DNA from: an uncultured Flavobacteriaceae bacterium
GTDB taxonomy: Bacteria > Bacteroidota > Bacteroidia > Flavobacteriales > Flavobacteriaceae
Reading direction: 5' to 3'
Length of the DNA stretch: 64,000 nucleotides
Assembly: GCA_937959395.1 (NCBI GenBank)
Contig: CALGLR010000048.1
Coordinates: forward strand, 1-64,000
Translations under genes and position numbers: made by a program
Shown: in pieces, positions 15,383-26,501 of the stretch
Layout of the letters: every line of letters starts with the position of its first letter
Position numbering within the stretch: position 1 is the first letter of the stretch
The notes under the pieces: generated by a model
The model's input: the letters and a program-made list of their open reading frames with translations, nothing else
Databases searched by the model: none
Told to the model about the DNA's origin: nothing

Positions 15383-15527
15383 TTTAATTGTATTTGGATT
15401 AGTTAATCCCACAAAGTAAAAAACCTTAGATTTTGTAATAGTTAAGTAGAAGTGATCTTATTACTACTTTATGGTTATCGCAATGTAAACGAGCTAACAA
15501 TTATTTAAAATAGCAAGAATTGGAACT

Positions 15528-15816
15528 AAAAAAAGAACCACCACAAACGGATAGTTCTTTTAAATTTAAAATTGGCCCACTAGGTCTCCCTTCGACTCCA
15601 CTCAGGATAAACTTCTCAATCTAGCATTCGTTTTTTCAACAAAAAAAAGAACCACCACAAACGGATAGTTCTTTTAAATTTAAAGTTGGCCCACTAAGTC
15701 TCCCTTCGACTCCACTCAGGATAAACTTCTCAATCTAGCATTCGTTTTTTCAACAAAAAAAAGAACCACCACAAACGGATAGTTCTTTTAAATTTAAAGT
15801 TGGCCCACTAGGTCTC
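15528..15816 (+). repeat. 114-base tandem repeat carrying the tRNA-Gln 3' end and terminator
   Basis: Two full units start at G15535 and G15649, and a partial third starts at G15763 and merges into the real tRNA at 15800-15816; both steps are exactly 114 bases. Each unit contains the tRNA terminator hairpin, the last 17 bases of the tRNA, then a spacer with CTTCGACTCCACTCAGGATA and CTAGCATTCGTTTTTTCAAC. The units differ at only two positions that I can see. CTAGCATTCGTTT recurs at 15966-15978, on the other side of the tRNA. The stretch 15383-15527 holds nothing I recognise beyond the leader of the minus-strand gene. Confidence 0.9.
15755..15789 (-). terminator. tRNA-Gln terminator
   Basis: On the minus strand AAAAGAAC pairs with GTTCTTTT and runs into further T, starting 11 bases past the tRNA 3' end. 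The same hairpin is repeated in the two tandem copies. Confidence 0.75.
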
Positions 15817-15872
15817 GAACCTAGACTCTTCAGTACCAAAAACTGACGTGTTACCAGTTACACCATAGGCCA
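15800..15872 (-). tRNA. tRNA-Gln (anticodon UUG)
   Basis: 73 bases fold into a standard cloverleaf. The acceptor TGGCCTA pairs with TGGGCCA with discriminator A. The D arm is GTGT-AACTGGTA-ACAC. The anticodon arm is TCAGT-TTTTGGT-ACTGA, giving TTG at positions 34-36. The T arm is CTAGG-TTCGAGA-CCTAG. CCA is not encoded: the sequence after the discriminator is ACTTT. It reads CAA, and by wobble CAG, as glutamine. Confidence 0.95.
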
Positions 15873-15922: not shown

Positions 15923-16108
15923 CATTTTTTAAAGAAAAAAAAATTAAAATTATTTAGATTGAAAACTAGCATTCGTTTATTGGTCATAAATATTTTATTT
16001 TTAACCCTTTATACAAAGGTTAATATTATATGTTAAGACATTTAAAATAGTTAGGCGCTGTTTAATAATTATTATTAAATTCGCCCAAGCATACAAAAAC
16101 TAATACAT

Positions 16109-26335: not shown

Positions 26336-26412
26336 CTTCGACTACGCTCAGTGACCGAAATAGATTCGACTATGCTCTGCGACCAAATAGATTCGACCAC
26401 GCTCTGGTGACC
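26336..26412 (+). repeat. Three degenerate copies of the CTTCGACTNCGCTCAGTGACC repeat
   Basis: Copies at 26336-26356, 26364-26384 and 26391-26412, spaced 27-28 bases, each ending in GACC. They resemble the copies near 15590, 15704 and in polA at 36543-36710. With the hairpin at 26285 they account for much of the gap between GH20 and cutC. Confidence 0.8.
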
Positions 26413-26501
26413 AGACAGAAATAACAATCCTTTATAATCTCTTGCAAATTATAAAATCATTTAGCTACTAAATAATACTTTTTTGACAATCGCTTGCCGT
26501 A

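Follow-up and report, generated by a model that had tools for sequence, protein, structure and literature searches.

The tandem repeats behind tyrT of Escherichia coli were an early discovery, described with a 19-bp copy of the tRNA tail and with Rho-dependent termination, and we know of no accepted origin for them. RNAs of the RtT family also adjoin tRNA genes in Actinobacillus, according to one report (PMC4986893). In the open literature, no paper was recognised as treating tRNA-tail repeats in Bacteroidota.

The array considered here lies behind a tRNA-Gln gene in the window, that is, the whole 64,000-nucleotide stretch of DNA analysed, from an uncultured Flavobacteriaceae bacterium. It is not a simple product of slippage, nor is it proven to be the scar of an attachment event; it represents one case of a recurrent, hairpin-bounded tRNA-tail repeat. 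This anatomy recurs in Flavobacteriaceae, Patescibacteria and E. coli, with unit numbers that differ between E. coli strains and between related species, and the tyrT/rtT repeats are its best known relative. With a probability of about 0.5, the feature would belong, with its two units, to a recurrent class of tRNA-tail repeats of the tyrT/rtT kind, whose units vary in number through recombination or slippage between direct repeats.

Anatomy of the tRNA-Gln array

The only tRNA gene of the window, a tRNA-Gln(TTG) located with ARAGORN, is followed by a tandem array (Table 1) to which Tandem Repeats Finder assigns 2.6 copies, 97% matches and a score of 565, the highest of its eight rows in the window. 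Two full 114-bp units (15524-15637 and 15638-15751) agree at 111 of 114 positions, which bears out the preliminary description of a tRNA-Gln tail and terminator repeated in tandem at this period; the interval 15528-15872 given there was nearly right, the array starting at 15524. Each unit consists of the tRNA tail from the T-loop base A58, a terminator and a REP-like palindrome, in such a way that the palindrome-bearing spacer occurs twice and the tail with its terminator three times, counting the tRNA's own copy. The tail measures 17 nt from A58, and its copies differ from the tRNA by at most one change in the first 16 bases. The three successive terminators that had been claimed were recovered as terminator-like hairpins with a T run, compared with a mean of 0.3 in shuffled sequences, and the consequence of the array is that several terminators stand in series behind one tRNA. 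The arm CTAGATT can pair at 6 of 7 places (fixed-place chance 0.004) with GACCTAG, with which the tRNA-Gln's own tail starts, and the tail copy after hairpin 1 has one change within that stretch. Upstream of the tRNA-Gln, at 15967-15979, a 13-nt AAACGAATGCTAG-like piece matches part of the unit spacer.

A Pfam scan of eight neighbouring ORFs, from 9.5 to 21.7 kb of the window, found NusA, RimP, a universal stress protein, a phytase-like protein bearing a secretion tail, a TMEM260-like protein, a polysaccharide deacetylase, a thioredoxin and a phosphoesterase and, in agreement with the preliminary description, no integrase among the eight.

Table 1. Features of the tRNA-Gln array, in window coordinates
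Feature	Position	Strand	Remarks
tRNA-Gln(TTG)	15799..15872	minus	A58 of T loop at 15815, tail 15815-15799
Predicted intrinsic terminator 1, directly behind tRNA-Gln	15759..15789	minus	hairpin and T run
5' arm CTAGATT, hairpin 1	15732..15738	minus	6/7 pair with GACCTAG
Module GAGAAGTTTATCCTGAGTGGAGTCGAAGG, copy 1	15703..15731	minus	REP-like core CCTGAGTGGAGTCGAAGG
tRNA tail copy 1	15685..15701	minus	starts at A58; one C to T change
Predicted terminator 2	15645..15675	minus	hairpin and T run
5' arm of hairpin 2	15618..15624	minus	sequence
Module, copy 2	15589..15617	minus	sequence
tRNA tail copy 2	15571..15587	minus	starts at A58
Predicted terminator 3	15531..15561	minus	hairpin and T run; by eye, copy similarity stops at its T run
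Whole tandem array	15524..15816	minus	period 114

REP-like core and GAGAAG module

The palindrome core CTGAGYNNAGTCGAAG has 101 dispersed copies in the genome of origin with at most one mismatch (reversed control, 0). Thirty of these places were tested for an upstream tRNA and a tail copy: 28 have no tail copy, the other two being those of the window, and at one other tested place a tRNA (His) lies 102 bp upstream with merely 9 of 16 matching bases. The longer module GAGAAGTTTATCCTGAGnnnAGTCGAAGG, with at most two mismatches, occurs at five places in the same genome, behind tRNA-Gln (two), tRNA-Thr (one) and tRNA-Trp (two), and a tail copy stands behind the module in all five. Elsewhere in the window (26337-26413), tandem units of 27-28 bp share the REP core (TTCGACTACGCTCAG). 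In Dokdonia pacifica (L305-L324), the module AGAAGTTTATnCTGAGnnnAGTCGAAGT is also present away from tRNAs, many times within a palindrome like ACGCTTTC...GAAAGCGT, as if settling in palindrome centres.

Sequences similar to rtT have been linked to BIME repeats in one report (PMC2965389), and a REP-type body may be common to rtT and the window units. REP elements mobilised by RAYTs carry a GTAG or CGTC tag at one end, according to another (PMC3733652); no such tag was seen at the stem foot of the module, read by eye. Matches to Y1_Tnp number 21 in the genome of origin, and five of eight unit-bearing genomes have none, on which ground RAYT/REP transposition was rejected as the general maker of the units.

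Recurrence across genomes

With at most two mismatches, GAGAAGTTTATCCTGAGnnnAGTCGAAGG is found in 35 of 199 sampled genomes of Flavobacteriaceae (reversed control, 0), and a scan of a species-genome collection, the pattern of which also required AG behind the module, gave at least 116 stretches with it. Judged by titles, the matches listed include four Patescibacteria (L192, L202, L244, L303) and one Balneolaceae bacterium (L271), the remainder being Flavobacteriaceae genera or unclassified Bacteroidetes; Curtissbacteria, Parcubacteria and Levyibacteriota all rank among the Patescibacteria. Outside Flavobacteriaceae the module is rare: of 296 genomes sampled evenly over the phylum Bacteroidota, six have it, and each of these is one of the 30 Flavobacteriaceae in the sample. 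In the phylum of a patescibacterial genome it appears, with at most three mismatches, at 27 places in 11 of 192 genomes, and at six of these places (two at tRNA-Ser, one each at Leu, Arg, Glu and Gln) a tail copy follows that matches at 15 or 16 of 16 bases, with the GAGAAG start in every case. No exact match of the module pattern was found in viral contigs, and a viral origin of the units was rejected for that reason.

Among the matches listed with up to six mismatches, 171 of 237 distinct ones are followed by a tail copy, matching at no fewer than 12 of 16 bases, of a tRNA that lies at most 1.5 kb upstream; 66 lack one by this rule, some of them contig ends and some true orphans; at up to two mismatches, it is 157 of the 190 distinct matches listed, with 15 tRNA types. 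Among the matches listed, 162 tRNA loci have units, namely 131 with a single unit, 24 with two, four with three, two with five and one with six, that is, 31 arrays of two to six units. Periods run from 102 to 118 (63 to 81 behind tRNA-Trp); the exceptions are isolated steps of 212 (L224, where a stretch is masked) and 157. A terminator precedes the hairpin in 60 of the 106 loci with a spacer of at least 45 nt, by the rule used, and in none of the 20 tRNA-Trp loci with their short spacer. Between the last and the first tail of the 31 multi-unit arrays, the last is more decayed in 14, less in two and equal in 15. As related sequences are not independent, no P value is attached to the counts of recurrence, joint and pairing.

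Unit number in relatives, the comparison suggested in the preliminary description, is not identical. The same tRNA-Gln in two other sampled species of the genus (G001 and G002) shows no unit, and in the former a similar terminator stands behind the gene, by eye. In the genus of Maribacter polysaccharolyticus, 11 of the 12 genomes searched match the tRNA-Gln region; some have arrays, three loci (L330, L334, L335) are without a unit, and two (L328, L329) keep a remnant made of the arm and GAAGTTTAT, without a tail copy. Two further loci of that genus (L331, L332) contain another palindrome inside the loop of the REP hairpin, i.e., nested palindromes, and in other families of the order (L076, L077) whole tRNA-Gln genes, near-identical by eye, stand in tandem.

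The joint between hairpin and tail

The species-genome scan demanded AG behind the module, and the A58 boundary was therefore recounted without its loci, on those from searches with a pattern that stopped short of the tail (88 hairpins, 17 tRNA types). The copy is identical to the tRNA in 82 to 86 hairpins at positions 59 to 64, in 86 at position 58, in 56 at position 57, in two at position 56 and in none at positions 55, 54 and 53; given this fall before position 58, the tail copy starts at A58.

Ahead of GAGAAG, the sequence tends to be reverse-complementary to the start of the tail. In 167 collapsed hairpins of 19 tRNA types among the matches listed, the pentamer in front of GAGAAG forms on average 4.31 of 5 pairs with the five-base stretch of the tail that opens at position 59, as against 3.63 of 5 when control arms of other tRNA types are used (at most 3.75 in any of 200 draws). 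All five pairs are formed in 89 of the 167, and the mean reaches at least 4 in 13 of the 19 types and stays below in six, so the pairing is clear but modest. At the outer pair of the REP hairpin, 152 hairpins have C-G in 109, G.T in 21, A-T in 14, G-C in five, T-A in one and others in two; the conservation of most REP columns follows from the search patterns, which prescribed them. The wobble leans to the tRNA-sense strand, with counts that vary with the collapsing of rows and the number of pairs counted: G.T outnumbers A.C by 46 to 7 when three arm pairs are counted from the first and by 65 to 39 over five, and A.C is absent from arm pairs 1 and 2 of the 152-hairpin set.

The rtT repeats of E. 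coli

The tyrV repeats of E. coli K-12, annotated as rttR, comprise three 178-bp units in which the tail copy AATCCTTCCCCCACCACCA starts at A58 and the arm GGGGAAGGAT is a perfect 10-bp reverse complement of tail bases, with GAGAAG directly after it. A second type of unit, between two tRNA-Tyr genes of strain H2, has GGGGAAGGGT and then GAGAAC. Behind the last tRNA-Tyr, before narI, there are no units in strain WP8-S18-ESBL-07, one in H2, three in K-12 and four in ET881. In 40 evenly stepped records out of 4,795 that match, the RtT features under the match number one in 14, two in 10, three in 12, four in three and none in one, counts that partial matches can lower. In WP8-S18-ESBL-07, the query matches at one place, with 28% of its length, and at the sensitivity of this search there is no second place for the unit; nor does the tail-to-arm stretch of the E. 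coli unit appear behind this strain's tail.

The Rfam covariance model of RtT (RF00391) finds the units of two E. coli loci (five matches of 132.9 to 137.5 bits and one partial of 31.9), gives only the tRNA and no RtT match in the window at E up to 1, and has no match in seven unit loci outside E. coli at E up to 0.1. Since the model recognises the E. coli units and not those of the window, the latter share the geometry of rtT yet lie outside the Rfam family, and membership in it was rejected.

Origin of the units

In the favoured reading, a unit runs from A58 of the tail through a terminator (present in the window and in many, not all, relatives), a spacer, a tail-complementary arm and the GAGAAG module with its REP-like hairpin to the next tail. 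The direct repeats with their start at A58 would be where recombination or slippage adds and removes units, recombination between them being the most likely route of copy-number change. The hairpin at each joint may render the site prone to such change because its 3' arm is itself the start of the tail, and would in this way offer homology for a jump back to A58. How, then, would the first unit be made? Two readings remain, namely a hairpin-driven duplication and a cassette-like insertion into the T loop. In 21 of 77 loci, the similarity between the unit's spacer and the DNA that follows the distal tail exceeds the 95th percentile of the values for other loci, and in at least seven of 14 printed from the more similar ones (L191, L150, L231, L245, L235, L232, L210) the distal copy runs, by eye, through the arm into a broken hairpin. 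Against duplication, the distal flank resembles the unit spacer no more than the control does in the other 56 of 77; because of these flanks and of the E. coli strain without units, the unit does not always look like a copy of native flank, and because 131 of the 162 loci among the matches listed have a single unit, amplification alone is not enough.

Slippage had already been put forward in the preliminary description, and part of that proposal stands: tandem repeats of such length change their copy number easily, and the window units are identical at 111 of 114 positions. What plain slippage leaves unexplained is that the same module abuts A58 of many tRNA types. That ordinary slippage copied a tRNA end by chance, with no special element involved, is very improbable, given that the same module and joint occur at 162 tRNA loci among the matches listed and the reversed pattern at none; the recurrence, the joint and the arm pairing already contradict it as a complete explanation. 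The attachment-site scar, also proposed there, found partial support as well. A scar left by an island was rejected as the explanation, despite an integrase in one genome (G026) and truncated tRNA copies ahead of the units at two loci where islands seem to adjoin the arrays (L205, L206), these copies extending back, by eye, to the anticodon region, which is another crossover point. In G026, the 404-aa integrase, with Pfam integrase domains, lies 5' of a tRNA-Leu array, at the left end of a stretch of about 57 kb with catabolic-looking genes (L181-L183; G026:C2:424000-483999) that separates this array from a second Leu-tail array without a tRNA; by eye, the second array interrupts the apparent start of a mannose-6-phosphate isomerase gene.

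An insertion resembling that of gene cassettes is a tentative alternative, rather on the doubtful side. Here the unit would be a tiny non-autonomous mobile element that attaches at the T loop of tRNA genes; the hairpin at its end, folded from a single strand, would recombine between G57 and A58, the element would bring its own tail and terminator so that the tRNA stays intact, and new units would enter beside the tRNA, as in an integron. The sharp A58 joint in 17 tRNA types fits this, as do the E. coli alleles that share a flank and have either zero units, with no second place for one, or a single unit, the excess of G.T over A.C on the tRNA-sense strand, as for a hairpin folded on that strand, and the stronger decay of distal over proximal tails in 14 of 31 arrays; furthermore, the distal terminator can look like that of a unitless relative (L123 vs L012, by eye), and one unit carries cargo. 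This last case, the tRNA-Leu of G156 (L184:17400-19450), has genes for a Peptidase_M78 (IrrE-like) and a DUF4411/PIN protein between the tRNA-Leu tail and the hairpin-tail joint, as if carrying a toxin-antitoxin-like cargo, and no match to the site was found in the congener G329. It is, though, a single case, and no enzyme was found, in that five of the eight unit-bearing genomes have no Y1 transposase and no integrase is tied to the units; the viral contigs gave no exact pattern match, the seven loci with spacer and arm in the distal copy fit duplication better, and a unitless strain may have lost its units by recombination between tails. The wider proposal, in which miniature T-loop cassettes would be spread across Bacteroidota, Patescibacteria and Enterobacteria, with the hairpin of complementary arm and GAGAAG, folded from a single strand, as recombination site, genes carried on occasion and the E. 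coli rtT among them, is unlikely.

Selection at the RNA level would be another way to keep the units, if a small RNA were cut from the tRNA transcript, as proposed for the rtT RNA, and we regard it as quite improbable. The hairpin pairs co-vary, the wobble leans to the sense strand, and the hairpin region of E. coli folds as RNA far better than shuffles (z -3.7), whereas the hairpins of the window (z +1.0) and of tRNA-Thr (z +0.4) fold no better than theirs and that of tRNA-Leu is weakly better (z -1.5; 14 of 200 shuffles as good). The rtT of E. coli and two RtT-annotated Actinobacillus RNAs beside tRNA genes are reported to be transcribed (PMC4986893); against an RNA function, the terminator precedes the hairpin in the window and in 60 of 106 long-spacer loci, so the hairpin would be little transcribed, and the RtT model matches neither the window nor the seven other unit loci at the thresholds given above.

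That one and the same joint (A58, complementary arm, GAGAAG) recurs with many types of tRNA turns a curiosity into a comparative data set, one that extends across unrelated bacteria and makes the origin and the function of tRNA-tail repeats testable. For annotators it is a caution as well: a repeated tRNA tail is not necessarily an island scar.

Comparison with known systems

The window array shares features with several described systems. Integrative elements at tRNA 3' ends likewise regenerate the tail and leave a second one on the far side; the array differs from them by the lack of an integrase in the eight neighbours, by units of about 110 bp and by its tandem copies. REP elements and RAYTs come to mind because the window core CTGAGYNNAGTCGAAG is a dispersed palindrome, although the GAGAAG form sits at tRNA tails and the plain core mostly does not. 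With integron cassette arrays there is an analogy only, consisting of repeated units ended by an imperfect hairpin, the farther copies being more decayed (14/31); unlike cassettes, the units target the T loop of tRNAs, and cargo is present in one case only. The tyrT/tyrV rtT repeats of E. coli have tandem units directly behind the tRNA, a tail copy from A58, an arm complementary to the tail start (6 of 7 pairs in the window) followed by GAGAAG, and a unit number that differs between strains, all as in this class; the E. coli unit is longer (178 bp vs 114), and the rest of its hairpin differs in sequence.
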